From Sabellastarte sp. h YS-2021 (Eukaryota > Annelida > Polychaeta > Sabellida > Sabellidae): 64,000 nucleotides of DNA. Under the pieces are notes generated by a model that searched no databases, was not told the origin of the DNA, and saw nothing but the letters and a program-made list of their open reading frames with translations. This document shows, piece after piece, positions 20,460-61,193 of the stretch; positions within the stretch are counted from its first letter, which is position 1, and each line of letters starts with the position of its first letter. The stretch lies in the NCBI GenBank assembly GCA_964017235.1, contig OZ024932.1:81657451-81721450 (forward strand), read 5' to 3'. Both the position numbers and the translations under genes were made by a program.

Positions 20460-22276
20460 CTAGACCAAGGACGCATCTGTGGTCAGATGCAAGATGTATC
20501 CACTGGCAAAGGCAAAAGTAGCTATTACTCAGCTATGCCACAAGCTAGAGGTCTGAAATTTTACTATGTTATAGCTGACCCAAAAGTAGGTGAATAAAAG
20601 ATTTGCACAAAATTCTCTAAATGCAATAGTTTTCAAGTTACAAGTGATTTTACTCATGATGGAAGTTAGTGAAAAGTCCAAAAATAGCTATTACTCACTT
20701 AGCTATTGAGATAGACACTCAAGTTACTCACCATGTTGTAGCTATGGAAAAAGTAGCTGAATAACATTTTTTAACAAAATGCTCTGAATGCAATACTTTT
20801 CAAGTTATAAATGATTTAGTGTTGAGTAAGAACCTCAAAGTAGCTATTACTCAGCTATGCAATGAGCCACAGGTCTGGAATTTTACTATGTTATAGCTGC
20901 CTCAAAATAGGTGAATAACATTTTGAAACTAAATAATCTAAATGCAACAGTTTTCAAGTTATAAGTGATTTACTCAACAGTGATAACCTAAAAGTAGCTA
21001 TTACTCAGCTATGCCATGAGCTACAGGTCTGAAATTTTATTATGTAATAGCTGACCCAAAAGTAGATGAATAACATATTTGCACAAAATTCTCTAAATGC
21101 AATAGTTTTCAAGTTACAAGTGATTTTACTCATGATGGAAGTAAGTGAAAAATCCAAAAGTAGCTATTACTCACTTAGCTATTGAGATAGACACCCAAGT
21201 TACTCACCATGTTGTAGCTATGGAAAAAGTACCTGAATAACATATTTTAACAAAGTGCTCTAAATGCAATACTTTTCAAGTTATAATTGATTTAGTGCAT
21301 GATTTCATTAATTTTAATGCATTAAAAATTATACAAAAAATTCATAAAAAAACTTTAGCGTGTGAAAGCTCTCCAAAATGTAGGTGAATGAGTTATTTGA
21401 GAAATACTGGCTATCTGCAATACTTTCAGTGATAATAGGCATTTACTCATTTTAAGTAGGTGAGTAATTAGCTACGGATCTGAAAATTAACTAATTGAAA
21501 GCTCTCCAAAATGTAGGTGAATGAGTTATTTGAGAAATACTGGCTATCTGCAATAATTCTAGAGATAATTTGCATTTACTCATTTTGAGTAGGCGAGTAA
21601 TTAGGTATGCGTCTGAAACTTCACCAAGTGAAAACTATCCCAAAAGTAGGTGAATGAGTTATTTGATGAAAATTTTCATGTTTCAACAGAATACTCTTCT
21701 ACTACCCTGCGGGTCCAAAATTCGCTCGAAATCGCTCTATCTCTGACAGTTTCAAAGATATTTGCCATTTTTCATTTTCCGCAAAAATTCAAGATGGCCG
21801 CCAAAAGTTGTAAAATTTGAAATTTTTCATATTGCAACCAAATACTCTTGTACTACCCTGTGGGTCAAAAATTCACTCGAAATCGCTCTATCTCTTACGG
21901 TTTTCGAGATATTTGCACTTTTTGTATTTTGTAAAAAAACGGTCAAAGAAACACCCAGAATAATTCCCAAGGAAGCTTTGACCATGATGAACATATCCTG
22001 CAAATTTGGAAAGTGTACATTGCATGCCCTTTGATATACTGGGGCAGCAAAAGTCCCTAAAAATTTGAATGAAACGGCCGTGGCGGCCATCTTGTTTTTG
22101 GAAACGAGGCCAAAAAACTCTGAGGCAAGCTTTTGTACCATCGAACCTATCCTGCAAATTTGAGGCCTCTACTGCTAATACTTTTGGCTGCAGAGGGGTA
22201 ACGAGAAATCATCTACACACTGCGGCGGTGGCGTACCCGCGCGAAAACCATGGTATCCACCAGAACAATTACAGGA
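20460..22276 (-). mobile_element. Helitron-like satellite element H1
   Basis: Read on the minus strand, its 3' end is CTAG (20,460-20,463) followed by T. A 7-bp stem, 4-base-loop hairpin (20,473-20,490, 'gcatctg'/'cagatgc') lies nine bases inside. The body holds ~160-bp tandem units (20,490-21,340), ~133-bp units (21,340-21,690), then units related to the 169-bp family (21,690-21,950) and a unique stretch. The 3' half is an inverted copy of H2 (to 36,398). The 5' end is less sure: 'A|TC' on the minus strand at 22,277/22,276 is possible, but the palindrome expected there is incomplete. It is inserted in the gypsy element. Confidence 0.7.
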
Positions 22277-22429
22277 TATTATCATGATGCAGTACTTTCT
22301 ATGTTATTCATGAACTGAACAAAGAGTGATAAAACCTGAAGATAAAAACTAAGTAAATGATGAAAAAGAAAATAAATGTGAAGATTACTAATAGGTATTA
22401 GTGTGCTTACTGGAAGCAAAGGTTGGGTT

Positions 22430-23110
22430 TAAGAATTATGAGTGAGGGGCAATCCTGCTGCTGTGTAACCTTCCATGCTGTCCGAGATAAAAAAGGCATG
22501 TTGAACTTGCCATCCAGTATGTCAGAGATACAGTAACTGTTTTTGGACAGTAACTGTAGCTGAGTTGTGGATAAAGCGACAGATTTGACAATGGAGTGTA
22601 ACATTCCATTGGATGTCATGATTGGTAGGCTGCAGGAAGATTGGCAGCACCAGAGATATGTTGCAGGGATACTTTGTAGTGACTCAGGGCTGACAAAAAT
22701 GTAGACACACATCCACTTGAAGAAAACTGACCCCAACATAATTTATCATAGGCTTGAACACAGGACCGAGATTGATGGTTGTATTGATAGCAAGAGCTTC
22801 AATTTCATAGGGTAACCAGTTGACCTAGTGCTGTTTATGTCTAGCTGAAAAAAATCCACCGACATGCATTACCCCCTTTTGTAGGACATACAAGATGGAC
22901 CCAATGCCACCATTGGAAGAGGCACCATCAGTGGTTATTATTAGGATGTCACTGGGGGAAGGGATGACAATAGCTTTGATATCATTGAGAGATTTCTGGA
23001 CAGCTGAAAAGTGTGATGGAAGTTCTTCTGTCCAATTGACAATGGTGGAGGAGTCCAGGCCAGATGTGGCTGTTTCCAGGGGTGAGACCTGCTGAGAATA
23101 CTGTGGGATA
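22430..23110 (-). pseudogene. gypsy RNase H and 3' pol, broken
   Basis: The minus-strand frame contains 'TTDGASSNGGIGSILYV' followed by 'GGFFSARHKQH' and a stop, the start of a Ty3/gypsy RNase H domain with its first catalytic Asp. A continuation in other frames runs to ~22,430 ('LGPVFKP', 'VSLQHISGAANLPADP'), which is the end of the domain. Stops and frame changes are present. Confidence 0.75.
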
Positions 23111-23299
23111 CAGCTAGGCTTTGAGGTGTTTGAAGGCACACCATGATCACAGTGCCTTAACTGTCCTTGGTAGAGGTGATTTCAGGTGTGGGGTGATTTT
23201 GTGTGGACAGGCTTGTATTCTTCCCGAGGACCAGACCCAACCTAATATAGTAGTGGTGACAGGGAAAACAACAGTTTTAGTTGCTAAGAGGCAAAGGCT

Positions 23300-25195: not shown

Positions 25196-25279
25196 ATTAT
25201 CAAGTAATGCTCAGTTGATTGACTTCATCTGAAATGTCAGCACTTACTTCCAGTCAGGTGTCAGTATCCACCTTGAATG

Positions 25280-33345: not shown

Positions 33346-33763
33346 TGACAATAAGAATATATTTAAGTAATGACTTTTAAATATTAGATACAAAAGCCAA
33401 TGAAATTATTATTCAGTTTTATAATCCCACGACTTTAATATAAGAAACAATATTCCTTCTGGGCTAAAACACAATTTGTACTAGTACTATCATTAACATT
33501 CATCTGTTTCTATATATATAAGACTAAATGGCAATTGTGTATACAGTATACCTGAGTGATTCAATACAAGTAAGTAATTGTATTAATATTCTGTGTTCAC
33601 CTTTTAAATGTGATCAAAGAATTATCTCATTTCACACCTCCTCTCAATCTAATTGCTCTTCATTGCAATCAAGGCTAAATTGTTTGTGTCCACAGTATAT
33701 GCATTCAAATCACAATTAAATAATGACAATAGTCTTATGTTTTCCATTCTCCTTATAATTGTA

Positions 33764-36398
33764 TCCCCGGCGCGAAGTGGGGATACTATGGATTCATTAT
33801 CGCTCGCGTCCACAGAGATTTCTTGTTAGCGACCTACAGTCCACATTTCTTTCCAGATTTCTTTCATATTTGGCAGGTGGCTTGATATGGTGGAGGACTC
33901 GCCACCCTATCTTTTTGGTAGGCTTTATGTGTAAATTAGGCCTGTAGTAGACCAAAATGTCTAAAATGTGGAATATTGCTTGTTAGCGACCTACAGTCCA
34001 CATTTCTTTCCAGATTTCTTTTATATTTGGCAGGTGGCTTGATATGGTGGAGGACTCGCCACCCTATCTTTTTGGTAGGCTTTATGTGTAAATTAGGCCT
34101 GTGGTAGACAAAAATGTCTAAAATGTGGAATATTGCTTCTTAGCGACCTACAATCCACATTTCTTTCCAGATTTCTTTCATATTTGGCAGGTGGATTGGT
34201 ATGCTAGAGGACTCGCCACCCTATCTTTTTGGTAGGGTTTATGTCTAAATTAGGCCTGTGGTAGACAAAAATGTCTAAAATGTGGAATATTACTTGTTAG
34301 CGACCTACAGTCCACATTTCTTTCCACATTTCTTTCATATTTGGCAGGTGGATTATCGCTTAAAAGTATTGCAAAATAGCCAATTTTTCTCAAATAACTC
34401 ATTCATCTACTTTTGGGAGAGCTTTCATATGGTGAAGTTTCAGACCCGTAGATAATTACTCACCTACTCAAAATGAGTAAATGCGAATTATCTCTTAAAA
34501 GTATTGCAGATAGCCAATTTTTCTCAAATAACTCATTCACCTACTTTTGGAAGAGCTTTCACATGATGAAGTTTCAGACCCATAGCTAATTACTCACCTA
34601 CTCAAAATGAGTAAATGCGAATTATCTTTAAAAGTATTGCAGATAGCCAGTTTTTTCTCAAATAACTCATTCACCTACTTTTGGGAGAGCTTTCACATGG
34701 TGAAGTTTCAGACCCATAGCTAATTATTGACCTACTCAAAATGAGTAAATGCGAATTATCTCTAAAAGTATTGCAGATAGCCAATTTTTCTCAAATAACT
34801 CATTCACCTACTTTTGGGAGAGCTTTTACTTGGTGAAGTTTCAGACCCCTAGCTAATTATTGACCTACTCAAAATGAGTAAATGTGAATTATCTTTAAAA
34901 GTATTGCAGATAGCCAGTTTTTCTCAAATAACTCATTCACCTACTTTTGGGAGAGCTTTCACATTGTGAAGTTTCAGACCCATAGCTAATTATTGACCTA
35001 CTCAAAATGAGTAAATGCGAATTATCTCTAAAAGTATTGCAGATAGCCAATTTTTCTCAAATAACTCATTCACCTACTTTTGGGAGAGCTTTTACTTGGT
35101 GAAGTTTCAGACCCCTAGCTAATTATTGACCTACTCAAAATGAGTAAATGCGAATTATCTCTAAAAGTATTGCGAATAACTAATTTTTCTCAAATAACTC
35201 ATTCATCTACTTTTGGGAGAGCTTTCACATGGTGAAGTTCCAGACCCATAGGTAATTACTCACCTACTCAAAATGAGTAAATGTGAATTATCTGTAAAAG
35301 TATTGCAGATAGCCAATTTTTCTCAAATAACTCATTCATATACATTTTGGAGAGCTTTCAATTAGTGAATTTTCAGATCCGTAGCTACTTACTCACCTAC
35401 TCAAAATGAGTAAATGCCTATTATCTCTAAAAGTATTGCACCTAGCCACTATTTCTCAAATAACTCATTCACCTACATTTTGGAGAGCTTTCACATGCTA
35501 AAGTTTTTTTATGAATTTTTTGTATAATTTTTAATGCATTAAAATTAATGAAATCATGCACTAAATCAATTATAACTTGAAAAGTATTGCATTTAGAGCA
35601 CTTTGTTAAAATATGTTATTCAGCTACTTTTTCCATAGCTACAACATGGTGAGTAACTTGGGTGTCTATCTCAATAGCTAAGTGAGTAATAGCTACTTTT
35701 CAATTTTTCACTTACTTCCATCATGAGTAAAATTACTTGTAACTTGAAAACTATTGCATTTACAGAATTTTGTGCAAATATGTTATTCATCTACTTTTGG
35801 GTCAGCTATTACATAATAAAATTTCAGACCTGTAGCTCATGGCATAGCTGAGTAATAGCTACTTTTAGGTTATCACTGTTGAGTAAATCACTTATAACTT
35901 GAAAACTGTTGCATTTAGATTATTTAGTTTCAAAATGTTATTCATCTATTTTGAGGCAGCTATAACATAGTAAAATTCCAGACCTGTGGCTCATTGCATA
36001 GCTGAGTAATAGCTACTTTGAGGTTCTTACTCAACACTAAATCATTTATAACTTGAAAAGTATTGCATTTAGAGCATTTTGTTAAAAGATGTTATTCAGC
36101 CACTTTTTTTCCAAGGCTACAACATGGTGAGTAACTTGAGTGTCTATCTCAATAGCTAAGTGAGTAATAGCTACTTTTGGACTTTTCACTAACTTCCATC
36201 ATGAGTAAAATCACTTGTAACTTGAAAACTATTGCATTTAGAGAATTTTGTGCAAATCTGTTATTCACCTACTGTTGGGTCAGCTATAACATAGTAAAAT
36301 TTCAGACCTCTAGCTCGTGGCATAGCTGAGTAATAGCTACTTTTGCCTTTGCCGGTGGATACATCTTGCATCTGGCCACAGATGCATCCTTGGTCTAG
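33764..36398 (+). mobile_element. Helitron-like satellite element H2
   Basis: The 5' end is TC preceded by A (33,763/33,764), within a palindrome 'gtatcccc ... ggggatac'. The 3' end is CTAG (36,395-36,398) followed by T. A hairpin at 36,368-36,385 ('gcatctg' loop 'gcca' 'cagatgc') lies nine bases before CTAG. A subterminal inverted repeat links the ends: 'tgtatccccggc' (33,760) and 'gccggtggataca' (36,351). The body has 157-bp units (33,823-34,350), ~133-bp units (34,360-35,490) and ~160-bp units (35,540-36,340). TC...hairpin-CTAG between A and T is the Helitron signature; no Rep/helicase, so non-autonomous. Confidence 0.85.
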
Positions 36399-37074
36399 TT
36401 TTATCAAAGGATTCTATTCTATTCAAATTGCAATAAGTCCTCTGCCAGGTATAAATATAGACAGAAAATCTGGGGATAATCACAAGTCAAACAGATCTCT
36501 AGAGTGAATGATAAAGGTTTTTTTCAAAGAGATATTTATGGTAAAGTGATCTAATGAAGACTGCAAAGAGATTAAATGCAGGTTTAAAGCCAAAAAGATT
36601 TAGAGACAGATAATAATAAAGTTTGGATAAAATACCTCACAATTTATCTCTTCCGATACATAAACATAAAATATTATAATAGGGATAAAGATACAAAAAT
36701 TCTGGACCTCAGAGCAATACCCTCAGCATTAAGCCCCATTTCCTTACATGCATGTATAATATTTGTATGATATGTCTAATTTTTCTAACAATTTTGCACA
36801 TATTTTACATCTTGAATTCTTCTGACACTCAATTTATTTCTTTGACAACAAATAAATGTGTATACAAAGCAGGTTTTAGGGGTGTTTAAAACTCTGCATG
36901 TTTACCGTGTGGAGATACCGTGTGGAGCCTCCATATGGTGTTTAGTGGGACCCAACTCATGGATTATATATTTTGTTGATATATATAACTTGCTTTATAA
37001 AGTTAATTAGTTAAACAAGAGATTTAGTATTGTACTATCTGTGTTTTAATTAGGATGTTAATTTAATTTTTTAT
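36399..37074. other. gene-free DNA
   Basis: AT-rich, nothing recognised. Confidence 0.45.
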
Positions 37075-40000
37075 GTCAGCTGACTTGTCAGTCAGCTGAC
37101 ATTATGTCATCACTCTGCGGCGTGGGCGTATGCGTCCGCGTGAACAACTTCTTCTCCAAAACTACAAGGCCTAGAGACATGCTGTTTTTTTTAAAGATAC
37201 CTTATCTATCGAGGATGAAAAATTGTTCAAGGCATGCAAATCTGTCTGTTCGTCTGTTTGCTAGAGACATTACAAGGGGGGTACCCCCACCAAAAGTGTG
37301 AAAATTTCAACTTTTTATCACAATTTTCTCAGTGACTATTGCAGGGATTTCTCTCATATCTTGCATATATGTACTAGGCCAGAGGTAGATTCTCTTGTGT
37401 GAGTATGAGACCTGGATCTGTCTTACTTTTTTTTTAATAAATTTTTTTAATAATTTTTAATGCATTAAAATTCATGAAATCATGCACTAAATCACTTATA
37501 ACTTCAAAAGTGTTGCATTTAGAGCATTTTGTGAAAATATGTTGTTCAGCTACTTTTTTCATAGCTACAATATGGTGAGTAAGTTGGGTGTCTGTCTCAA
37601 TAGCTAAGTGAGTAATAGCTACTTTTGGGCTTTTCAGTAACTTCCATTATGAGTAAAATCACTTGTAACTTAAAAACTATTGCATTTAGAGAATTTCGTA
37701 TAAATATGTTATTCAGCTACTTTTGGGCCAGCTATAACATAGTGAAATTTCAGACCTGTAGCTCATGGCATAGCTGAGTAATAGCTACTTTTAGGTTATC
37801 ACTGTTGAGTAAATCGCTTATAACTTGAAAACTATTGCATTTAGAGAATTTCGTATAATTATGTTTATCAGCTACTTTTGGGTCAGCTATAACATAGTAA
37901 AATTTCAGACCTGTAGCTCATGGCATAGCTGAGTAATAGCTACTTTTAGGTTATCACTGTTGAGTAAATCACTTATAACTTGAAAAGTGTTGCATTTAGA
38001 GCATTTTGTTAAAATATGTTATTCAGCTACTTTTTTCATAGCTACAATATGGTGAGTAAGTTGGGTGTCTGTCTCAATAGCTAAGTGAGTAATAGCTACT
38101 TTTGGGCTTTTCAGTAACTTCCATCATGAGTAAAATCACTTGTAACTTAAAAACTATTGCATTTAGAGAATTTCGTATAAATATGTTATTCAGCTACTTT
38201 TGGGCCAGCTATAACATAGTAAAATTTCAGACCTGTAGCTCATGGCATAGCTGAGTAATAGCTACTTTTAGGTTATCACTGTTGAGTAAATCACTTATAA
38301 CTTGAAAACTATTGCATTTAGAGTATTTTGTTTCAATATGTTATTCACCTATTTTGGGGTCAGCTATAACATAGTGAAGTTTCAGACCTGTGGCTCATTT
38401 CATAGCTGAGTAATAGCTACTTTGAAGCTGTCACTGTTGAGTAAATCAGTTATAATTGGAAAACTATTGCATTTACAGAAATTTGTGCAAATATGTTATC
38501 AGCTACTTTTGGGTCAGCTATAACATAGTGAAATTATAGACCTATAGCTCATGGCACAACTGAGCAATAGCTATTCTCAGGTACTGACTGTTGAGTAAAT
38601 CAGCTATAACTTGAAAAATATTGCATTTGGAGTATTTTGTTAAAATATATTGTTCACCTACTTTTGGGTCAGCTATAACATAGTGAAATTACAGACCTAT
38701 AGCTCATGGCATAGCGGAGCAATAGCTATTTTCAGGTTCTCACTATTGAGTAAATCAGTTGTAGCTTGAAAACTATTGCATTTACAGTAGTTTGCTTAAA
38801 TATGTTGTTCACCTACTTTTGGGTTAGCTATAACATAGTCAAATTTCAGACATGTAGCTCATTGCATAGCTGAGTAATAATTCCTTTGAGGTTCTCACTG
38901 TTGAGTAAATCAGTTGTAACTTGAAAACTATTACATTTAGAGTAATTTGTTAAATATGTTATTCACAGAATTTTTGGTCAGCTATAACATAGTGAAATTG
39001 CAGACCTCTATGTCATGGCATAGCTGAGCAATAGCTACTTTCAGGTTCTCACTGTTGAGTAAATCATTGTATCCACTGGATAGCCGCAGTGTGTAGAGAG
39101 AGATTTCACCATTACTGCTCTGATGAAAAAAAATATTATAGCTAGCTTTCTTAAGTTTGCAGTATATATTAATAACCATAAAATGTTGTCTGGGAATATT
39201 TTTGGCCTCATTTTGAGAAACAAGATGGCCGCCACAGGTGTTTTTTGTCAGTAATGAAAAGTGCTTATATCTCCCTTATTATTGATCCTAGAGGTTTGGG
39301 ATGATAAACCAACCCTGTAGGAAATCATGGGGTGGGAATCTTTTGGTGTGGTCAGATTTGACCTTCAATGACCCCTCCTTCAAGGTCAAACAAGGATAGC
39401 CAAACTTAAAAGTGCTTATAACTCGCTTATTATTGGTCCCAGAGGTTTGGGATGGTAAACAGACAGGAAATCATGGGCTGTGAATCTGTTGATATGGTCC
39501 GATTTGACCTTGGAACCCTCCTTCAAGGTCAAATGAGGATAGCTAAAATTGAAAGTGCCTACAACTCGCTTATTATTGGTGACAGAGTTTACCATCCCAT
39601 AGGAAATCATTGGGTCGGAATCTTTTGGTATGGTCAGATTTGACCTTTGGACCCCTCCTTCAAGGTCAAATGAGGACAGCCAAGCTTAAAAGTGCTTATA
39701 ACTCATTTATAATTGGTCCTAGAAGTTTGGAATGGTAAACCATAGGAAATCATGGGCTGGGAATGTATTTGTGTGGTTAGATTTGACCTTGGACCCCTTC
39801 TTCAAGGTCGAACGAGGATATTGCATTTGTAGTATTTCTTTAAATATGTTTTAACCTATTTTTTACATTTAAACAATTACCTTGTTATTTTCCTTCATAA
39901 TACCATTTACAGGGCACAACTTTTTTATCCTTTTCTTCTGTCAGCTTCGGAATTTCTTTCGAACTTGCTGTTTAGTTACCATTTACTGTATTTCTGTACA

Positions 40001-40099
40001 GCCCTTTTCCTGATAATTATTCTGTCCTCTAATCACCTTCACAAATCAAAAACACTCAGTCAGCTGACACAGTGCCCGTTCACGGGCACTCTCCTCTTG
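37075..40099 (+). mobile_element. Helitron-like satellite element H3
   Basis: The left end carries two copies of the palindrome GTCAGCTGAC (37,075 and 37,091). The right end carries one (40,059-40,068), followed by a hairpin with 8-bp stem and loop 'ttca' (40,071-40,090), a five-base spacer and CTTG then T (40,096-40,100). The body is ~155-165 bp tandem units (37,490-39,060). Two unit types occur: one with 'cagacctgtagctcatggca', one with 'gggtgtctgtctcaatagct'. Four ~147-bp units rich in 'ccttcaaggtcaaa' follow (39,245-39,820). CTTG in place of CTAG departs from the Helitron consensus. Confidence 0.75.
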
Positions 40100-40348
40100 T
40101 TTAAACTTTACTGCCTTCATCTTTCACTTACATATACTGTTGGCAATTGATCAACCATTAAATTGTATCATATATGAGTTTCTTAATTTGCACTTGCTAA
40201 ATTAACTATAGTAAAACTGAACTGAAAAGCAATTTACATTCTGACAAAGTTTCAGAAATTTAACCAGTTGATTAGAGTTATGTAAATCTAAAGACATATT
40301 TATGTCCACCCCCCTGGGGGGTGGATATATTATTTTTGCTTTTTTCGC

Positions 40349-40437
40349 CGTCCGATGTCCGATGTCCGATGTCCGTTGTCCGATGTCCGTTGTCCGATGT
40401 CCGATGTCCGGCGTCCGGCGTCCGATGTCCGGCGTCA
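40349..40437 (+). repeat. 7-bp minisatellite (gtccgat)n
   Basis: About twelve copies of a 7-mer, gtccgat, with gtccgtt and gtccggc variants, inside the left end of H4. Confidence 0.9.
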
Positions 40438-40789
40438 CGCATGGTTTCCGCTCATTTAAAGGAAAAGTATTAGAGCTATTGTCACCAAATTTGGTATGCA
40501 GGCTTATTGGGTCAGTAGCTTGCTTGGGATTGCTTTTGGCTGTTGTACCTCTTTTGCTTACTGAGTAATACTTAAGTACAGCTATTTTCAGTACCCATTG
40601 GTTTCCGTGCATTTAAGCCAAAATAATTAAAGATATTTTACTACAATTTTGAATACAAGATTGTTATGTCCATAGCTCGCTTGGTATTGCATTTGGGACT
40701 GATAGCTTTGTCAGTACATGAGTAATAGCCATTTAGGTACTTCATTGTGTATTTTCAGTACTACTTTTGAGTAATTTGCTTCTATCTCC

Positions 40790-43700: not shown

Positions 43701-45395
43701 GGGTATCTAAGGAATGCAATCTTTGCAATTTTCCAAAAATTTTCCCCTCCCCAAAAATGGCGGCCATTTTGAATTTTCGAATTTTTGCCAAAAATGGCAA
43801 AACACAAATTTGCTTCTATCTCCTTAACCGTGCGAGATAGAGCGATTTCGTCGAAATTTTCGACCCACAGGGTATCTAAGGAATGTAATATTTGCAATTT
43901 TCAAAAAAATTTCCCCTCCCCAAAAATGGCGGCCATTTTGAATTTTCGAATTTTTGCCAAAAATGGCAAAACACAAATTTGCTTCTATCTCCTTAACCGT
44001 GCGAGATAGAGCGATTTCGGCAAAATTTTCGACCCACAGGGGATCTAAGGAATGCAATCTTTGCAATTTTCCATAAATTTTCCCCTCCCCAAAAATGGCG
44101 GCCATTTTGAATTTTCGAATTTTTGCCAAAAATGGCAAAACACTAATTTGCTTCTATCTCCTTAACCGTGCGAGATAGAGCGATTTCGGCAAAATTTTCG
44201 ACGCACAGGGTATCTAAGCAATGCAATCTTTGCAATTTTCAAAATATTTTCCCCTCCCCAAAAATGGCGGCCATTTTGAATTTTCGAATTTTTGCCAAAA
44301 ATGGCAAAACACAAATTTGCTTCTATCTCCTTAACCGTGCGAGATAGAGCGATTTCGTCGAAATTTTCGACCCACAGGGTATCTAAGGAATGTAATCTTT
44401 GCAATTTTCAAAAAATTTTCCCCTCCCCCAAAATGGCGGCCATTTTGAATTTTCGAATTTTTGCCAAAAATTGCAAAACACAAATTTGCTTCTATCTCCT
44501 TAACCGTGCGAGATAGAGCGATTTCGTCGAAATTTTCGACCCACAGGGTATCTAAGGAATGCAATCTTTGCAATTTTCCAAAAATTTTCCCCTCCCCAAA
44601 AATGGCGGCCATTTTGAATTTTCGAATTTTTGCCAAAAATGGCAAAACACAAATTTGCTTCTATCTCCTTAACCGTGCGAGATAGAGCGATTTCGTCGAA
44701 ATTTTCGACCCACAGGGTATCTAAGGAATGCAATCTTTGCAATTTTCCAAAAATTTTCCCCTCCCCAAAAATGGCGGCCATTTTGAATTTTCGAATTTTG
44801 GCCAAAAATGGCAAAACACAAATTTGCTTCTATCTCCTTAACCGTGCCAGATAGAGTGATTTCGTCAAAATTTTCGACCCACAGGGTATCTGAGCATTGT
44901 ACTCTTGGTAATTTCTAAAAAAATTTCCCCTCCCCTAAAATGGCGGCCATTTTGAATTTTCAAATTTTTGCCAAAAATGGCAAAACACAAATTTGCTTCT
45001 ATCTCCTTAACCATGCGAGATAGAGCGATTTCGTCGAAATTTTCAACCCACAGGGTATCTAAGGAATGTAATCTTTGCAATTTTCAAAAAATTTTCCCCT
45101 CCCCAAAAATGGCAGCCATTTTGAATTTTCGAATTTTTGCCCAAAATGGAAAAACACAAACTGGCCTTAACCGTGCAAAATAGAGTTATTTTGTTGAAAT
45201 TTTCGACCCATAGGGTATCTAAGAAATGTACTCTTGGCAATTTTCAAAAAAATTTCCTTTTCCCAATAATGGCGGCCATTTTGAATTTTCAAATTTTTGC
45301 CAAAAATAGAAAAACAGGAATTGGCTTCTATCTTCTTAACCGTGCAAGATAGAGTGATTTCGTCAAAATTTTCAACCCAACCAATGCAAAAAGGC
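40790..45395 (+). repeat. 169-bp satellite array with 5-monomer higher-order repeat
   Basis: About 28 monomers, phased on 'gagatagag' at 40,969, 41,130, 41,299 and then every 169 bp to 45,017. Diagnostic differences define types: A (ggcaaaa, 'aagcaatg', 'caaaatatttt'), B/T, C ('ccaaaaattt'), T' (gtaatattt, 'caaaaaaattt') and G (ggcaaaa, 'caggggatc'). A-type monomers fall at 40,969, 41,806, 42,651, 43,327 and 44,172. The intervals are 837, 845, 676 and 845 bp; 845 is 5x169, and 676 is 4x169 with G missing. The edges (40,800; after 44,848) are more diverged. Each monomer carries 'aaaatggc g gccatttt', an interrupted palindrome. Open frames on both strands recur with the monomer and are not genes. 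Confidence 0.92.
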
Positions 45396-45546
45396 ATGAA
45401 GCTGAAATAAATTACATCTACACTATCAAATATTTAAGCATCATTGATATATTTTACAAATGAAACAGGGTCTTGTAAGACTACTGTACAATTTGGGCAA
45501 AAGGTTCATGGGTGGACATTACACATGATAATGTGTGTTCTTCTAT

Positions 45547-46636
45547 GCTATCCTGTTTCTATTCGCATCTACTATCAACAGGGCGGCCTATTTCTAGTTT
45601 CATTTTGAACTCATGGTCAAGGAAATTCAAGACTTCTTTGACGTGCAATAAAAAAGTCTATTTTTTGGACTTTTCAGTATTTTGAAAATTATAAATATCC
45701 TGGAAATTGCAAGAGACATGTGATTTTAAGTTTATATTCAGTCTTACAGGGTATGTTAGAGTGCTAGAAAAATAAGAAATTGTTAAAAAGTTTCAAGTTT
45801 GGCTTATTTTTGTGACTGTAATGTTAAAATTGAGCTTGTGATGATATCATAAATGGTAAGACATTTCAAGTTTATCTTTGATCCTGCAGGGTACCCAAGA
45901 GTACTGGAGCTCCCATTAAAATTTCTGAATTTATCTGCTATTATTTTTAATTTAACACTGTCAAAATTTTTGCTGTGTCTCACATATGGAAACAAATAGA
46001 ACAATGTCTAGTTTATTTTGGGACAGATGTGGTACATTAGAACTCAATAAATATAAAATTTTTCACAAGATTTTGAAATTGTTTTCAGCCAGTAACATTA
46101 CATAAGAGCGCTCTGTGCAAGCAAAAACAAAAAACAGTTGAAGTTGTTGCCAGAAAAAAGTGGACTGAAATTATATCTCAGGAACATATTGCTCTTTTTA
46201 AACAAGTTCTTTCATTATAATATACCATTTTAACTTTGACTAGTTTTACAGTGCTTGCTTATCATTAAAACCACCCAAAGTAGACTCAGAGATTAAATTT
46301 TCCTAAACCAGGTGTTTTGAAAATCAACCAATTACAAGTTAAACATTGCATTGAAATTGTCTTTAAAAAGTAAAAGAGGCCTGTTGCATGTCTATTTGGT
46401 AATCTTTTTGAAAATATCTTCATAACAAAGTTAATAAGGTTAAAATAATCACTCTTAAATTTTATCAAACTGCTAGTCTTTTATAATCTTTTGCAAAATT
46501 TTATTTGAAGTGTTAAAAGAATGTTAGGTACACAGCTTTTACTGAATGCAAAGACCAGCTATCAATTTTTGAAACTGGTTGTTAGTTTTTTTTACATCAA
46601 TCATTGTGGTATTCATCAACATTTTGTCATTTTTGT
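45547..46636. other. gene-free DNA
   Basis: AT-rich sequence with no recognised gene or repeat. Confidence 0.45.
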
Positions 46637-47291
46637 GTCAGCTGACTCGTCACTTGTCAGTCAGCTGACATTATGTCATTACTGTCTGGCGTTGGCATAT
46701 GCATGAACAACTTCTCCTCCAGAACTACAAGACCAAGAGACATGCTGTGTTTTTTAAAGATACGTTATTATCTATTGAGGATAAAAAATTGTTCAAGGCA
46801 TGCAGCTCTGTTTGTTCATCTGCTCCCCAGAATTATTACAAGTAAATGTACCCCCACCCAAAGTGTGAAAATTTCAACACTTTATCACAATTTTCTCATT
46901 GATTATTGCAGGGATTTCTCTCTTATCTTGCATATATCTACTAGGCCATAAGTAGATACTCTTATGTGAGTATCAGGCCTGGATGTTTCATAATTTTTTA
47001 TTTTTTTAGAATTTTGTATAAATATTTTATTCAGCCACTTTTGGGTCTGCTATGACACAGTTGTTATGGTCACGGGGCAAGCAATTGGTAGCAATTACCG
47101 GTTGCTTTTAGGTTGCAACAGTTTTAACTTAACAAATGGCAAAAAGTTTAACTTAACAAATTTATTTAACAATTAAAGATAATGATTACAATCAACTGGT
47201 ATGCTCTCAATAGTACATACAATAACACAATAATCAAAACAATCTGACTTGACCACTGTAACTGACAGTTAAGTTTGTTGACTATAGCCAG

Positions 47292-47724
47292 TAGTGCTGT
47301 AACGAGTTGACCGAAACTCGAGTCGTAACTCAGTGGGCGGTACTTGGGGATCACATTAATTTACGCAATTTAACTCGAGTTTTTATGAAATAAATTATGA
47401 TATACTAATCTTGTTATAAAACCAGCACTTTTGCAATTTGTCTAATCATAAAGACATAAAAAATCAATGAGCAATGGTCGTTTTTTTAATTTCCCTTATG
47501 TATGTGGCTGTTCCATAAAGTGCTTATACATATCTGCACAATTTAACAGGCAACAAAATATATTTCCTTGGAATAAAATGGTACTAAACACGTTAATGGC
47601 GGATCCCTTGATGACAATATTTGGACATTGTTATTTTATTTATATTTGTGTCATTTACTCGAGTTCAACTCGCATCTAACAGGCGAGCGTTGATCTACAG
47701 AAATCGCTAATGATAACAGCTCTA
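47292..47724. mobile_element. 433-bp hAT-type MITE with 8-bp target duplication
   Basis: Flanked on both sides by 'atagccag' (47,284-47,291 and 47,725-47,732), the 8-bp duplication typical of hAT transposons. Tips are inverted: TAGTGCTGTAAC on the left, and TAGAGCTGTTAT as the reverse complement of the right tip. 'actcgagt'-type blocks occur near both ends as subterminal repeats. No transposase. The related LTR at ~4,490 ('tccgtatccagtaatctgtc') lacks the insert, which supports an insertion here. Confidence 0.9.
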
Positions 47725-47991
47725 ATAGCCAGTATTCTGTCCTGTGATTTGTCCTGTGATCCGTTCAGTGTCCAATAACACACAGATATCTGTATCCTGT
47801 GATCTGTTCAATGTTCAATAACAAGAAATGGCCTTATACTGTGATCCTTTTGATATCCAATCACACAAAATGTCTGTATAGAGATATTCAGAAAGTTTGC
47901 ACAACTGTACTGTCCACTCCAAGATATGGACAATGTCCAAAATGCAGTAAATCCACTCTCTGGTAGAATCACACACTGTATAAAATTATAA

Positions 47992-50819
47992 CAAGGCCAC
48001 TGCCGTGGTATTGTCTCCCGCCGAGCATTACAGGGGAAGAAATACCTTTTCCGAGATATTCACAATTTTTCATTTTCCGCTAAAATCCAAGATGGCTGCC
48101 AAAAGTGGTGAAAACTGAAATTTTTCCCCTAGGCACAGAATACTGTTGTACTACCCTGTGGGTCAAAAATTCGCTCAAAATCGCTCTATTTCTTACCATT
48201 TCGAAGATATTTTCAATGTTTATTTTCCGCTAAAATCCAAGGTGGCTGCCAAAAGTGGTGAAAATTGAATTTTTTTCCCCTTTGCATAAGATACTATTGA
48301 AGTTTTTCCCCTTTGTATATGACACTGTTGTACTACCCTGCGGGTCAAAAATTCACGCGAAATCACTCTATCTCTTACGGTCTTTGAGATATTCACACTT
48401 TTTAATTTTCTACTAAAATCCAAGATGGCCGCCAAAAGTGGCAAAAATTGGAATTTTCCCCATTTGCATAGGACACTCCTGTACTACCCTGTGGGTCAAA
48501 AAATCGCTCGAAATCACTCTATCTCTTACGGTTTTCAAGATATTCACACTTTTTAATTTTCCGCTAAAATCCAAGATGGCCGCCAAAAGTAGTGAAAATT
48601 GAATATTTTCCCTTTTCCATAGGACACTCCCGTACTACCCTGTGGGTAAAAAATTTGCTGGAAATCGCTCTATCACTTACGGTTTTTGAGATATTCACAC
48701 TTTTTCATTTTCCGCAAAAATCAAAGATGGCCGCCAAAAGTGGCGAAAATTGAATTTTTTCCCTTTTGCATAGGACCCTCTTGTACTACCCTGTGGGTCA
48801 AAAATTCGCTCGAAATCGCTCTATCTCGTATGGTTTTCGAGATATTCAAGTTTTGCCATTAAAAGTGACTTACTGAAAGGAAAACAGTCCGTTAGCTATG
48901 GACTTACAGCTGTGAAACTTTGCCACGATACAGAACATTAAAAAGTAGGTGAACAACATATTTGACAAAAATCCTCTAAATTCAACAGTTTTGCTGTTAA
49001 AAGTGATTTACTCAAAGGAAAACAATGAAAGTAGCTATTACTCAGTTAGCTATGGACTTACAGCTGTGAAACTTTGCCACAACACAGAACATTAAAAAGT
49101 AGGTGAACAACATATTTGACAAAAATCCTGTAAATGTAATAGTTTTGCACTTATAAGTGATTTACTCAATGGAGAACCATCAAAGTAGCTATTACTCAGT
49201 TAGCTATGGACTTACAGCTCTCAAAATTTGCCATTACACGGTACATAAAAAAGTAGCTAAACAACATATTTGAGAAAAATCCTTTAAATTCAACAGTTTT
49301 ACTTTTATAAGTGATTTCCTCAATGGAGAACCATTAAAGTAGCTATTACTCGGTTAGCTATGGACCTATAGCTCTCAAAATTTGCCATTACATAGTACAT
49401 CAAAAAGTAGGTGAAGAACATGTTTGACAAAAATCCTCTAACTTCAACAGTTTTGCTATTAAAAGTGATTTACTCAAAGGAAAACAATGAAAGTAGCTAT
49501 TACTCTGTTAGATATTTACTTACAGCTGTGAAACTTTGCCACGACACAGAACATTAAAAAGTAGGTGAACAACATATTTGACAAAAATCCTGTAAATGTA
49601 ATAGTTTTGCACTTATAAGTGATTTACTCAATGGAGAACCATCAAAGTAGCTATTACTCAGTTAGCTATGGACCTACAGCTCTCAAAATTTGCCATTACA
49701 CAGTACATTATAAAGTAGGTGAACAACACATTTGACAAAAATCCTTTAAATTCAACAGTTTTGCTGTTCTAAGTGATTTACTCAATGGAAAACCCTCAAA
49801 GTAGCTATTACTCAGATAGCTATGGAGATATAGCTGTGAAAATTTCCCATGACACAGTACATCAAAAAGTAAGTGAACAACAGATTTGACAATAATTCTC
49901 TAAATTCAATAGTTTTGGAGTTCTAAGTGATTTACTCAATCTTGAAATTCAAAGTAGCCATTACTCAGTTAGCTATGGAGATACAGCTCTGAAACTTTTC
50001 CACGACACAGAACATTAAAAAGTAACTGATTAACATATTTGACAATAATTCCCTAAATTCAATAGTTTTGGAGGTATAAGTGATTTACTGAATGTTGAAA
50101 TTAAGAAATTTCAAAGTAGCTATTACTCAGTTAGCTATGAACTTACAGCTCTGAAAATTTATCACGACACAGTACATCAAAAAGTAAGTGAACAACATAT
50201 TTGACAAAAATCCTGTATTTTCAATAGTTTTTGAGTTATAAATGACTTGCTCAATGGTCAAATGTTAAACTTACTGTAGCTATTACTCAGCTTGCTATGG
50301 TGCTACACCTTGGAAACCCCACCATGATATAGTACATGAAGGAGTTGTTCAAGAGCATATTTGAGAACAATATTGTAAGTAACAGTTACAAAGATAAAAG
50401 CAACTTACTCATTTTGGTCATTGTTAAAAATAGAAAATAGCTATTCCTCACTTAGCTATCAAGATAGATCCCTAAAAATGGTACCATCTTGTAGGCATAG
50501 AGAAAGTAGCTGAACAACGTATTTTACAGAAATGCTCTAAATTCAGTCGTTTTTGAGTTATGAGCACTTTACTGAAAGTAGCCACCATTGCTATTACTCA
50601 CTTAGCTATGGGCCTAGGTCTGAAAAAACAGCATCAAATGAAAAGACATAAGCTATAAGGTCATAAAACATTGAAAAGGCCAAGGAGAAACAACCAGTGT
50701 GATGTATAGCCCTTTTTGAAAACGTGAAACACACACGCACTCACCCCCACACACACACACACACTCACCCCCGCACACACGCATGGAATGCGTTTTATAA
50801 TTTCCGGGCTAGCGGGAGA
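47992..50819 (-). mobile_element. Helitron-like satellite element H6
   Basis: On the minus strand it starts A|TCTCCCGC (50,819) and ends CTTG|T (47,995-47,992), inserted between A and T of the LTR. Subterminal inverted repeats: 'tattgtctcccgc' (48,009-48,021) and 'gcgggagataata' (50,812-50,824), 12 of 13 matching. A short hairpin ('ccac' tgcc 'gtgg', 47,997-48,008) sits next to the 3' end. The body has five ~151-bp units at 48,030-48,850, related to the inverse of the 169-bp family, then ~153-bp units to ~50,600 with 'gtagctattactcagttagc', then an AC-rich tract. Tandem core plus microsatellite is typical of non-autonomous Helentron-type elements. Confidence 0.75.
50726..50790. repeat. AC microsatellite
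   Basis: Interrupted (ac)n tract with 'ctcaccccc' interruptions, at the 5' side of H6 on its own strand. Confidence 0.85.
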
Positions 50820-52020
50820 TAATAAGTAATTAATATCCAAAGTACAGCAGATCTATCCAGATACTGTAAAAAGTTCACTCCAGCAGTAGTTCAGAACAAC
50901 ACAATTTATATCCACTTGTTATTTAGTTCTAAGACACAAGTAGCCTTCCTTATTACCAGCAAATACTATGTTCACTTGTGGTCAGATGTACAGTCCTTAT
51001 ATATCATTATGGAAGCTTCTAGAATGTTACAGAACCAACTTGAAGTTAGCATCAGTAACCAGATCAAGTGAGGGAGTTCTAGAAGCTACAGGTAGCTTAT
51101 AGGGCTTCCCTTAATCTATTAATAGCATCACTGGGGTTAGCCTAGAGGGATTCCCCCCAGCCTATAAATAGATTAATAAACATCAGTACCACATAACACA
51201 AAATCAATAACTCCCTTACTTTAAATATTAATATGTACATATAAAGCTTAGATTAAATAATGCACAGACACAGTGCCTATATATGTAACATAGTAAAATT
51301 GCAGATCGGAATCTCATGTTATAGCTAAGCAATACCTACTTTCAAGTTCTCACCGTTAAGTAAATCAGTTGTAACTTCAAAAGTGTTGCATTTAGAGTAT
51401 TTTCTTTAAATATGTTAGTCACAAACTTTTGAGTCAGCTATAAGATAGACAAATTGCAGATCTTTAGCTCATTGCATAGCTGAGCAATAGCTACTTTCAG
51501 GTTCTTGCTGTTTAGTAAATCTCTTGTAACTTAAAAAAACTCTTGCATTTAGAGAATTTTGTATAAATATGTTATTCAGTTACTTTTGGGTCAGCTATAA
51601 CATAATAAAGTTGTAGACTTGTAGCTCATCGCATAGCTGAGCAATAGCTACTTGCAAGTTTTTGCTGTTGAGTAAATTGCTTTAAACTTTAAAACTAAAG
51701 CATCAAGAGAATTTAGTTTAAATATGTTAGTCACCTACTTTTGGGTCAGCTGTAATGTATTGAAATTGCAGACCTATAGCTTATTCCGTAGCTGAGCAGT
51801 ATCTACTTTCAGGTTCTCACTGTTGAGTAAATCAGTTGTAACTTGACAACTGTTGCATTTACAGTATTTTCTTTAAATATGCTATTCAGCAACTTTTGTG
51901 TTAGCTTTAACATGGTTAAATTGCAGACCTGTAGCTCATTGCATAGCTGAGCAAAAGCTACTATGAGATTCTCACTGTTGAGCAAATCAGTTGTGTCCCA
52001 ATACATTTTATGGCTCTAAA

Positions 52021-53085
52021 TGCAATACTTAGGAAGATAATGGGGGGGGGGGGGGGAAACTGTGAGAAAATTACTGATAAATCGGTCAATTTTTATCAGA
52101 TCTCTCCCCACAATCTGATCAGCTCACGTTTTTGATAATATGAACATGTGTATGAAATTACTAGTCTCTTCGGTTAGTAGATTTTGCCGAGTGACGATGA
52201 TGGGCAGGTGTACCCCAAAATAAATTTTTTTGATCATGTGACCTCGATAAAGATCAAAGGTCAAATTTAAGCATGTGGAAAAATTTCCCCACACCTAAGG
52301 TATATAACTGCCAAATATGGTTAGAAAGCTTCCAATAATAAGGGAGATATTCAAGCGAGAGCATAATGCAGCAGTGAGGAAACTGAAGTGAAAACAATTA
52401 AGTCCCCTTTCACGGATGCTTAATTAGCTTTTATTCTGTTGAAAGTATTGTATACAGAGAGCTCATACCCAGAACATGTTCCATGTTCCATTGACTAAAG
52501 AGATCAAGTATTTATAGAATTAGCTTATACCTTCTTTCACAGAACTATTTTATAGAAGCAAATCAATTTTATATACACAGCTTTAAACTATGTTAAGGTG
52601 TTTGATTTTTTTGCATTTCAGTAGATTTACAATTGTTGAACTTTAGAATAGAATATCGACAAGTGAGCAAAGTGTATCAATCAAATTTCTGTGGCATTTG
52701 TGACTCAGCATGGTTGTATTCTCTAATCCATCAACATCAAAGACTTATTCCTGACTGTATACACAGGAGGATAGCTCTTTGTTCAAAGTTTCCCCAACAG
52801 GAAAGAAGACAATTCCATGTACACGTGAAAATGATGGAGAATCAACTGTTCAGAGTACACAGAAATTGTCTTTTTCATTGATTGCGTGTGTTAAACCAAC
52901 CTTTATATCAATGTGTTTATTACAACTGCGTATGATTATGACTGAAAATATAGAGTTTTATTCCTGTTGTGTGTATACTGTTATGTCACAGGAATGTTAT
53001 TTAATAGGACATCAGTCCTAACCTAAAGTGTGACCAAACGTATCCTGGTTTTTAACTTCTATAAGTTGCATTCCTGAGCTCAGTT
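52021..53085. other. mostly gene-free DNA; G-run
   Basis: A run of about 14 G begins near 52,041. The sequence around 51,995-52,025 matches 59,838-59,890 in reverse complement. An open frame at 52,633-52,881 (+) follows a plausible acceptor ('ttttgcatttcag'), but its peptide matches nothing I recognise and no donor stands out. Confidence 0.4.
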
Positions 53086-53670: not shown

Positions 53671-54400
53671 TAACCCCAGCCCATTAAGGCTAGGGTTATA
53701 GATATAGTCGTTCTCTATGCCGTCCGGGAGGCTGCAGCAGGCATAAAGTTTATGGGTGTTCCGCAGCCTAAACCCATGCACAGATTTTCACTAAATGTTC
53801 AGGATATGTTTACCCTAAGATGATCTAGAGTTGATTAGGTTTTGGTTGGTATCTGGCAACAACTGTTGCAACACTTTTAAGATTTTTGGGTCTTAAAGAG
53901 TTTTGGTGTTCCACAGCCTAAACCCATGCATCAATTTCACCACATTTTCAGGATATGTTTACCTCAAGAGGATTTAGAGCTGATTAGGTTTTGGGGGGTA
54001 TCTGGCAACAACTGTTGCCATGGCATCTATGTTATGATTTTTGGGTCTTAATGATTGTGGGTGTACTATAGCCGCAAACCCATGTATGGATTTTCACCAA
54101 ATTTTCAGGACATGTTAACTGAAAGAGGATCTAGAGCTGAGTAGGCTTTGGGGGTATCTGGCAATAACTGTTGCCATGGCAACATTTTGTATATTTTGTG
54201 GTTTTTAACACTTGTGGGTCTTCCACTGGCCAAACCAATGCATTGATTTTAACCAAATTTTCAGGAAATGTTAACCAAAACAGGATTTAGAGCTGATTAC
54301 GTTTTAGAGGGTATCTCTTAACACCTGTTTCTATGGCAACGCTTTACATACTTTTCAGTCTTAAACTTCTTAATTGAAAAAGGGGCACTATAAAGTGTTG
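53671..54400. repeat. ~152-bp tandem repeat, four units, hairpin start
   Basis: Opens with 'taacccc agcc cattaa ggct agggtta' (53,671-53,698), a palindrome with one mismatch. Units begin at 'gtgttcc.cagcctaaaccc' near 53,756 and 53,907, with degenerate starts near 54,060 and 54,213. It is likely the 5' part of another element of the H2-H7 type; the 3' end is unresolved. Confidence 0.65.
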
Positions 54401-58229: not shown

Positions 58230-58978
58230 GTAAGCTCAAATAGCACATAGTTTTTTATATATACAAAAATTTATTGAGAGGAGCTCCAACAAAACGCTGT
58301 TCTATAATTGCATGTGTTCAAACAAATTTAAGGTTTAATTGGGCAAGGCCCACTTTTGCATGTAAACTTTCAAAGTTTGACGAATTATCTTTGGTCAATG
58401 ATGGTCAGTTTTATAGCCATGTAGGAAATGTTTTAGTGTATGGATCCATGCACACATATGTAGTATGCAACTTATGGATATGGCTTGCAGTAAAAAATTC
58501 AAACAGTATAACCGGTAGTTCTAGAAGGAGTTTTTCCTTGTGCATAGCTTGTGGATACAACTTGCGAATTGTGGCTTGTGTTAATTTTTTAGCAATGATT
58601 GATTTTACCAGATCTGCAAGCTCAACCAGACAAGAAAAGACATAAATTGTAAATAATATTTTTCGAAAAATTCAAAATTACATATACACATGGATGCATA
58701 CACCTAGACTTTCCCAATCTTTAACCAATAGTTTTTGTAAAGGTAGGTAGCATTTATGTCTTTCCTCTGCCAAAATAGAAATTAGTTTTATAAATTTAAA
58801 AAAGGGAACATACAGAGTGTATATGCATATATCATATTTCAATATCCTATAGATTTTATTTATGCATACACAATGTTGGTTCAAACAAAACTAAAAATTT
58901 ATCAATTGTCAAGTAAAATAAAACCTGTGCAATACTAGTTGGATATTTTTTAAATGGCAGTTGGGTTGAATTAAAATT
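58230..58978. other. presumed intron of the NCKX gene
   Basis: Follows the donor at 58,230; AT-rich. The open frame at 58,274-58,645 (+) shows no recognised similarity. Confidence 0.5.
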
Positions 58979-59427
58979 AAGTGTCCCTTGTGGGACACTT
59001 ATTTATATTTAGAGGAGAGAGAGTCTGCTGGCTCCGCTGGCTCCCACATTTTCTATTGCTTACAGCTCAGCAACCACAGGGTAGATTCTCATCAAATTTA
59101 GCATGTGTATGTGGTAGCCCTGGGAAAAATTTCTGAATATGGTGTCATGACATTTCAACCAATCAGAAAAGTCACATGACCAAAAACATGTTTTTCAAAG
59201 GGGTGTGCTTGTCTGGATGGTAACTTATAAAGCGCTTCACCTATTCACAAAAAATTTGGCAAGTATCTTTGTTATATAGATGTCTGGATATAATTAACTT
59301 TTGCAAGTAACCCAATACAAAATAGCCGACTTATTAACAATTAACAAAATGCCACATTTTATTGCACTACAATAGCTTACCATGTGGGACTGAATGCTGT
59401 TCTCAGATGGCCGCAGGCATTCTTATT
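58979..59427 (+). mobile_element. 5' end of a satellite-type element (truncated)
   Basis: Begins with a perfect palindrome 'aagtgtccc ttgt gggacactt' (58,979-59,000), very like the start of H7 ('aagcgtccct'). It ends where H7 starts. No matching 3' end was found after H7, so it is likely a truncated copy. Confidence 0.6.
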
Positions 59428-61193
59428 AAGCGTCCCTGAAAGGGCGCTTATTTGTTTTCGCCTCAGTTTCCTCGCCGCCGCCGCCACCGCCGCCGCATTA
59501 TGGTCTCCCTTGAATATTTCCCTTATTATTAGAAGGTTTCAAACCATATTTGGCACTTATATACCTTAGGCGTGGGAAGATTTTTCTGCGTGCTTAAATT
59601 TGACCTTTGACCTTTATGAAGGTCACATGATCAAAAACAATTTTTTTTAAGTACACCCCCCGTCATCACAGTTCAGGAAAAACTACTTGCTACACAGCCT
59701 TATGCTTTGACACACCTGTTTATACTATCGAAAACGCGAGCTGATTAGATTTTGGGAGCAATCCCTTGAAAAATGTCTCATTTATGGGTGATTTCCTCAC
59801 ACCTTCCAATCTGAGAGCCTTAAATTTAGGTCAACCCCCCTATTATCTTTTTAAGTATTGCATTTAGAGCCATAAAATGTATTGGGAGGTAATAGGAAAC
59901 CATATGTGGAGAGTCTAAATAGCCGGTCAGTTTTACCCCACGGCCCTCCCTTATGGGTCAAACTGGGGTCATAAAATAGCTGATTTTGAGTTTTTGCCTT
60001 ATATCTCCTTTATTGTTGCTTTTATAGCTTCAGAATGTATTAAGAGGTATTGTGAAAGCATATGTGGAGAGTCTAAATAGCCGGTCAGTTTTACCCCCCG
60101 ACCCCCCCTTATGGGTCAAACTGGGGTCATAAAGTAGCTGATTTTGAGTTTTTGCCTTATATCTCCTTTATCGTTGCTTTTATAGCTTCAGAATGTATTA
60201 AGAGGTATTGGGAAAGCATATGTGGACAGTCTAAATAGCCAGTCAGTTTTACTGCTCAAACCCCCCTTATAGGCTAAACTGGGGTCATAAATAGCTGCTT
60301 TGGAGTTTTTGCCTTATATCTCCTTTATCGTTGCTTTTATAGCTTCAGAATGTATTAAGAGGTATTGGGAAAGCATATGTGGAGAATCTAAATAGCTGGT
60401 CACTTTTATCCCCTGATCCCTCCCCCCCCCCCCATGGGACAAACTGGGGTCATAAAATAGCTGATTTCGAGTTTTTGTCTTATATCTCCTTTAATGTTGC
60501 TTTTATAGATTGAGAATGTATTAAGAAGTATTGGGAAAGCATATGTGGAGAGTCTAAGTAGCCGGTCAGTTTTACCACCCGACCCCCCCCTTATGGGTCA
60601 AACTGGGGTAAAAAATAGCGGTTTTGGAGTTTTTACCTGATATCTCCTTCATTGTTGCTATTATAGCTTCGGAATGTATTAAGAGGTATTGGGAAACCAT
60701 ATGTGGACAGTCTAAATAGCCGGTTAGTTTTACCTCCTGACCCCCATGTATGGGTCAAACTGGGGTCATGAAATAGCTTTTCCTTTATTGTTGCTTTTAT
60801 GCTTTCACAATGTATTAAAACCTATTGCAAAACCCTGTGGACAATCTAAATAGCAATACATACTTGCACACCTGATTATATATGAAGTTATCAATACTCG
60901 TTACTGAAATGCTTTGTAGCATTTACACAAAATTTACTAAAGTTACATCCAATGTTGTACATCCAATGTACAACACTTTCTCCAGCTTGTCTATGTCTAC
61001 AACGCTTGTTTATATTAATTAAAGAAGACCTTTGTAGGATTTTCCCTGTCATGATATCACTAAGGGGGTTGGTTTATGTAACAGTACGGTACAGCTTTGT
61101 GCATTCTTAGCTTTACAGCATGCTTATTAAAACCACAAGGCATTTTAAACTCTCAGGGACGCTTCGCTTTTGTTAGCAAAAGCATTCATCTAG
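59428..61193 (+). mobile_element. Helitron-like satellite element H7
   Basis: The left end 'aagcgtccctga' (59,428-59,439) is exactly inverted as 'tcagggacgctt' (61,153-61,164). A hairpin ('gcttttg' ttag 'caaaagc', 61,166-61,183), a six-base spacer, CTAG (61,190-61,193) and then T follow. Tandem units of ~158 bp (about six) fill 59,860-60,850 ('ttatatctccttta', 'agtctaaatagccggtcagt'). A CCG-rich run lies at 59,470-59,496 and a direct repeat of TGACCT at 59,601-59,613. The exact 5' base is uncertain. Confidence 0.8.

Follow-up and report, generated by a model that had tools for sequence, protein, structure and literature searches.

Satellite-bearing elements of probable Helitron2/Helentron type, with end types and core families in mixed combinations, in a Sabellastarte contig

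A group of satellite-bearing elements lies between positions 20,460 and 61,193 of a 64,000-nucleotide stretch of the Sabellastarte sp. h YS-2021 genome (contig OZ024932.1, positions 81,657,451 to 81,721,450, forward strand), referred to below as the window. The elements were labelled E1 to E8 for this analysis, and their ends were sorted into types b (E8), c (E1 and E2), d (E3 and E6), e (E5) and f (E4). They are very probably non-autonomous, non-coding elements of the Helitron2/Helentron type (HINE; pearl, Cg_HINE), which would depend for their movement on a Rep-helicase supplied in trans, with satellite blocks later exchanged and elements broken by insertions. The structural fit comprises a 5' word with a 5' hairpin (clear in E3, E4 and E8), a tandem core, a 3' word adjoining a hairpin and a T-rich edge. 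In keeping with non-coding elements, neither a Rep nor a helicase family occurs among the 11 Pfam families to which 47 of the 59 open reading frames of at least 90 amino acids gave matches. The set is a further case of a published structure, the HINE kind being already known from oysters and flies, and the end grammar alone adds nothing to published models. What the window adds beyond published work is that, judging from sequence comparison, a given satellite is not tied to a given pair of ends.

Inverted end words, hairpins and copy edges

Comparison of left and right array flanks yielded inverted word pairs in E3 (TGTCAGCTGACT, 37074 and 40058, matched at 12 of 12 positions) and in E4 (ATGTCCACCC, 40302 and 45510, 10 of 10). 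E8 carries the pair AAGCGTCCCTGAAAG at 59428 and 61150, which matched at 14 of 15 positions and can be written AAGCGTCCCTGA(A/G)AG, and E5 the pair TATTATCTCCCGC at 50824 on the minus strand and 48009, which matched at 12 of 13 and can be written TATT(A/G)TCTCCCGC. The 3' word abuts the hairpin directly in E5 and is separated from it by one base in E3, E4 and E8. In the control test, the 25 bases before the hairpin were kept fixed and compared with 300 control zones per element, using a score that understates perfect matches by one, in the controls likewise. The observed match was reached by 6 of 300 control zones for E3, 22 for E4 and none for E5 or E8. A preliminary description of this DNA had claimed a common terminal layout with words that differ between elements and match within each one, and for these four elements both parts of the claim were borne out. 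Subterminal inverted repeats of 11-15 bp are present in E3, E5 and E8; the repeat of E4 is 10 bp, and E1 and E2 fall short. Read inverted, the E1 3' word is identical over 11 bases to the 5' word of the c-type module at 39069. Thus, a c-type word pair exists, though E1 seems to have lost its own, and the first 5' arm of E1 is apparently missing. The matrix of flank matches is not decisive by itself, because some mismatched flank pairs reach equal scores (26.9 and 25.0, besides two long matches that reflect real homology).

A 3' hairpin was found in all six elements with a 3' end, and in four of them it adjoins the matched word. The 4-base loop named in the preliminary description is present in 6/6, but it is weak evidence because 56 of the 126 hairpins outside arrays, counted on both strands, share it. 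Folding of the 3' ends gave z values against shuffles of -3.6 (E3), -2.2 (E8), -2.0 (E1), -1.5 (E2), -1.2 (E4) and -0.9 (E5); the corresponding values at the 5' ends were -6.8 (E3), -5.5 (E6), -4.3 (E8) and -3.2 (E4). The 5' end of E2 has 8-bp palindrome arms, and its fold, made one base short, gave z -1.3. The description had further placed CTNG and then T after a spacer of 1-9 bases, and five of the six elements have this motif no more than 9 bases from the stem, as CTAG then T in E1, E2 and E8 and as CTTG then T in E3 and E5. Its presence in four of five end families corresponds to p 2.8e-6 at a base rate of 0.0275, which is optimistic as the motif was picked after looking. Among the hairpins outside arrays, 6 of 126 are followed by CTNGT against about 3.5 expected at the same base rate, and four of these six are at array 3' ends; for hairpins generally CTNGT is not clearly enriched.

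A number of results weigh against the Helitron2/Helentron assignment. E1 and E2 have one 3' end in common, but their own end words match at chance level (289/300 and 105/300 control zones), and the common layout with matched words is not confirmed for these two elements. The 3' stem of E5 is only 4 bp long and its 5' end gave no hairpin in the fold (z 0.55), and in E4 the 3' hairpin is not followed by CTNG and T. A blind scan for a hairpin with CTNGT and an inverted word, compared with 30 shuffles, singled out E3 alone: its score of 31.4 exceeded all 30 shuffles (highest 28.0), the 25.0 of E8 was reached by 3/30 with decoys scoring up to 23.0, and E2 (19.0) and E1 (18.0) were not outstanding. 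By its design the scan is blind to E4, which lacks CTNGT, and to E5, with its 4-bp stem. At a candidate empty site for E5, the right flank aligned with the host-repeat copy at about 26.2-26.4 kb at chance level (60 of 300 shuffles). No autonomous partner was found in the window. Finally, canonical Helitrons end in CTRR, a pattern that the CTAG of E1, E2 and E8 satisfies and the CTTG of E3 and E5 does not.

The chance-level words of E1 and E2, and the failure of most grammar hits to outscore shuffles, would also be expected if the arrays were common satellites or products of segmental duplication, with end words that are chance palindromes picked by eye. Palindromes are over-represented across the window in general: 27 rows of perfect palindromes were counted outside arrays against 0-12 in 20 shuffles, and 9 of them (seven places) lie in the described end structures and 18 elsewhere. 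Such an origin is nevertheless very unlikely in view of the control-zone results for E5 and E8 (0/300) and E3 (6/300), and of copy pairs that have common edges next to unrelated flanks. These edges were observed directly. E1 and E2 are 95.9% identical over 1223 bp in an alignment that ends within 6-7 bases of the CTAG end, their likeness running to CTAG and a few Ts. The likeness of E3 and E6 begins at the T-tract just before the 5' word, and that of E8 and the minus-strand module at 52422 near TTAAG. In all three pairs the flanks beyond are unrelated. The 5' modules of E6 and E3 share 81.2% identity over 410 bp, and the E1 5' module is homologous to the one at 39069.

The CTAG before T in E1, E2 and E8 would also suit non-autonomous elements of the canonical Helitron1 kind. 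We regard this as hardly probable, since E3 and E5 end in CTTG and E4 in neither, a 5' TC end was not made out by eye, and the 5' hairpins (E3, E4 and E8) and inverted words (E3, E4, E8 and E5) are marks of Helitron2 (PMC3627910).

The Helitron2/Helentron assignment was compared with known systems, here and below as presented in parts of the cited papers. For Bao and Jurka in 2013 (PMC3627910), the marks of Helitron2 were inverted repeats that are short and asymmetric, a hairpin at the 5' end, and a 3' word placed directly before the 3' hairpin; they proposed that word pairing sets the replication end. Words of 8-15 bp and a 3' word abutting the 3' hairpin are common to Helitron2 and the window, as is, in E3, E4 and E8, a 5' word in the 5' hairpin; that group also includes autonomous RepHel elements, and none was found in the window. 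Thomas 2014 (PMC4067079) defines HINE and sorts families by the identity of their subterminal inverted repeats (subTIRs). DINE-1 and mite HINE resemble the window elements in their palindromic subTIRs of 12-15 bp, 3' palindrome, central repeats and T-rich sites, but for them empty sites and autonomous partners have been demonstrated (PMC4067079), and neither was found in the window. In Crassostrea gigas, Vojvoda Zeljko 2020 (PMC7492417) reported 11 Cg_HINE elements with 13 satellite clusters, some unrelated end words and double arrays. As here, these have a 5' subTIR with a complementary inverted repeat, a 3' subTIR followed by a palindrome, and T-rich sites (PMC7492417). The GTCY-type microsatellite that follows the 5' inverted repeat in Cg_HINE has its counterparts in two window elements, in the GTCCGAT array of E4 and the CA-rich array of E5, both found by Tandem Repeats Finder; a GCC-rich stretch in E8 and GCGTCC in E3 were read by eye only. 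Cg_HINE arrays number one, exceptionally two, with units of 138-181 bp (PMC7492417), whereas E1 and E2 each have three. The pearl elements CvA, CvE and CvG (cited in PMC11136912 and PMC7492417), likened by description, have similar modules and core repeats of about 160 bp, and PMC8268682, PMC5139131, PMC5148889 and PMC11136912 agree with the HINE picture. The likeness to non-autonomous Helentron and pearl elements that the preliminary description had proposed was thereby upheld, the structure fitting the published definition (PMC3627910, PMC4067079 and PMC7492417).

Under published models, a Rep protein encoded elsewhere would nick the 5' end next to a T, rolling-circle replication would copy the satellite core and would stop where the 3' word and hairpin mark its end; one signal proposed for this is that the 5' word pairs with the 3' word. 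For the window elements we infer mobility, rolling-circle replication and Rep binding of this kind. Elements would then have traded satellite blocks, for which template switching or recombination within arrays and T-tracts is the simplest route, and later insertions, as the joints suggest, would have broken the elements up.

Satellite families and end types

Tandem Repeats Finder gave array units of 133, 143, 151, 154-156, 157, 158 and 167-169 bp. Seventeen unit consensi were doubled and compared on both strands against shuffles, and the cores of E1 to E8 are assigned on this basis to four satellite families. Family A comprises the 155- and 133-type units (8 of 17 consensi), family B the 151 and 169 units and a 182 variant (3 of 17), and family C the 143 and 158 units (2 of 17). 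Four consensi had no strong relative, namely those at 33818 (family D, 157 bp), 1-282, 33082 and 53744, and three weak links (z 4.6-5.5) connect families. Because the 133 and 155, 151 and 169, and 143 and 158 bp units are homologous, the cores are less different than the preliminary description had claimed, although the periods themselves were recovered.

Family A was found with end types c (E1 and E2), d (E3 and E6) and e (E5), family B with c (E1), e (E5) and f (E4), and family C with b (E8) and c (the module at 39069). In Cg_HINE each cluster, defined at a 70% threshold, has one specific flank pair (PMC7492417). Unlike this, A155 (about 90%) occurs in the window under c and d ends and B151 (about 81%) under c and e ends. 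Only these two would be single clusters across end types at the 70% threshold, by which the A154 of E5 (about 70%), B169 (65-68%), and C143 and C158 would count as separate clusters. The E3 array including its linker is 90.6% identical to that of E1 over 840 bp and 90.1% to that of E2 over 842 bp. E3 and E6, which both have d ends, share 81.4% in their longest array alignment, which spans 710 bp, and up to 83.7% in a 166-bp piece. The E3 array is therefore nearer to one with a different end type. In a tree of A monomers, which included 36 of 49 hits, five E1 monomers are each paired with an E2 monomer, those of E5 stand apart as a separate clade, and groups of E1, E2 and E3 monomers span end types (a distinctive type with support 100/100 and a second group with 95/85). 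The tree also has points against the exchange reading: it does not separate E6 from E3, support at many inner forks is weak, and the bootstrap had not settled.

Exchange of arrays between elements is the simplest reading of this mixture. We tentatively suggest that ends and cores could be interchangeable cassettes, with the T-tract linker and array blocks copied in register between families with unrelated ends, so that satellites hop between several transposition systems instead of staying with one. The mixing may, with some plausibility, instead come from nesting alone, by insertion of element fragments into other elements. The c-type module that interrupts E3, the LTR-like (long terminal repeat-like) repeat that holds E5 and interrupts E6, and the start of the common linker at a T-tract, the type of site where HINEs insert, are all in line with nesting. 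What nesting accounts for less readily is that in E1 and E2 the linker and A array stand in register beside their own c-type 3' end at 90.6% and 90.1% identity to E3. If true genome-wide, block exchange would explain one satellite family under several element families and would separate satellite history from carrier history. The elements illustrate how rolling-circle transposons can disperse satellite DNA.

Covariation of hairpin arms

The preliminary description suggested that the ends are recognised by structure more than by primary sequence, with arms that co-vary and could thus change while pairing is kept. This idea had appeared in print in 2013 (PMC3627910), where two related CQu elements were found to have compensatory changes; these speak for it, as do the words of E3, E4, E5 and E8 that differ between families and match within them. 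Family-specific Rep-binding words would equally give matching words. Three b-like 5' hairpins with ten pairs were compared; one pair has a double change (C-G to T-A, 59426 vs 58977) that favours structure, one changed on one side, 2/10 depart by unpaired cells only and 6/10 never vary. Equal counts were obtained in 327 of 500 shuffles, pairs are broken in the 52422 copy, and the d-type 5' arms of both copies carry an identical 12-base word. Elsewhere, near-identical subTIRs in families less than 70% identical (PMC4067079) speak for recognition of the word itself. Recognition by structure is accordingly unlikely, and as a structure-only rule it is unsupported, shuffles doing as well. These counts concern the 5' arms, each matched family having a single 3' end in the window.

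Coordinates, nesting and neighbouring repeats

The features are collected in Table 1. The B151 units of E1 were identified by BLAST alignment to the 48.6 kb region.

Table 1. Elements, modules and linkers in the window, numbered from its first nucleotide
Feature	Position	Strand	Description
E1, c-type	20460..22261	-	3' hairpin and CTAG at 20460-20490; 5' module to ~22261
E1 core order			A155 20513-21293, linker palindrome, A133 21362-21671, ~2 B151 units 21667-21949
E2, c-type	33761..36398	+	5' palindrome GTATCCCC..GGGGATAC; satellites D157, A133, linker, A155
E2 3' end		+	hairpin TGCATCTG-GCCA-CAGATGCA, then CTAG and T
E3, d-type	37073..40099	+	13-bp 5' hairpin including GTCAGCTGAC; A155 array
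E3 3' end		+	word 40058-40069, hairpin AGTGCCCG-TTCA-CGGGCACT, CTTG and T
c-type 5' module (GTATCCACTGG) and C143 repeats	39069..39821	+	interrupts E3 A array; A unit resumes ~39822
E4, f-type	40302..45547	+	5' hairpin ATGTCCACCCCCC, GTCCGAT microsatellite 40350-40431, B169 array
E4 3' end		+	word 45510-45519, hairpin ACACAT-GATA-ATGTGT; no CTNG and T; 3' limit uncertain
E6, d-type 5' module and A155 array	46635..51994	+	split by putative LTR-like repeat ~47062-51283
E5, e-type	47992..50824	-	within putative LTR-like repeat; 5' word TATTATCTCCCGC, CA-rich microsatellite 50729-50780
E5 core and 3' end		-	A154 then B151 arrays, 3' word, hairpin CCAC-GGCA-GTGG, CTTG and T
E8, b-type	59426..61193	+	5' hairpin TTAAGCGTCCCT, GCC-rich stretch, C158 array
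E8 3' end		+	word TCAGGGACGCTT, hairpin GCTTTTG-TTAG-CAAAAGC, CTAG and T
5' hairpin with b-like word TTAAGTGTCCCT	58977..59001	+	one double substitution vs E8
5'-only b-type module	51996..52427	-	73.7% to E8 over 468 bp
5' palindrome TAACCCCAGCC/GGCTAGGGTTA then 156-bp array	53671..54338	+	
T-tract linker and 16-bp palindrome TTTTAATGCATTAAAA	E3 37430..37487; E2 35504-35562; E1 ~21295-21352	E3 +; E1 -	precedes A array

The putative LTR-like repeat cuts E6, which starts at 46635, within an A unit: the A piece to its right begins at model position 83 and the one to its left runs from position 39, and a possible 4-base near-duplication, CAGT/TAGT, was seen by eye at the joint. The array at 51286-51994 conflicts in orientation with the reversed b module and was assigned to E6. 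No 3' end was found for E6. The LTR-like repeat also contains E5, along with an insert some 495 bp long, and the A array of E3, broken by the c-type 5' module with C repeats, continues with an A unit beyond it. Exact and near-exact word searches and inspection by eye found no 3' partner for the five 5' modules at 39069, 46635, 52422, 58977 and 53671. The starts at 53082, 53671 and 54400 (the first and last read by eye) are consecutive 5'-like starts in the same direction, each before a different repeat, and no 3' ends were made out for them, that of the 53671 module included. The T-tract and palindrome before the A array of E1, E2 and E3 could be either an end or a linker prone to breakage.

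Exact patterns for satellites A, B and C and for d-type ends gave 0 matches in viral and prokaryote contig collections, which is uninformative for animals. A literature text search for six window words brought up eight papers with unrelated subjects, each of them through the same 12-letter word.

The putative LTR-like repeat is non-coding and has copies at 4281-5005 and at 47062-47293, 47788-47904 and 50888-51291, with partial copies at 26391-26718 on the minus strand and at 18377-18558. The insert at 47293-47788, about 495 bp with TAGCCAGTA on either side by eye, is perhaps a hAT-like miniature inverted-repeat transposable element. On the minus strand, 14489-15037 is likely a retrotransposon remnant, with a weak RNase H-like reverse transcriptase match (E 5.1e-5; its 23.8 bits fall below the Pfam cut-off of 24.8). 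Segments 5877-6063 and 11256-11438 form a 187-bp inverted pair, 96% alike and more than 5 kb apart, one copy of which holds GTGGTC-ATGT-GACCAC followed by G and CTAGT, resembling the 3' ends of the elements.

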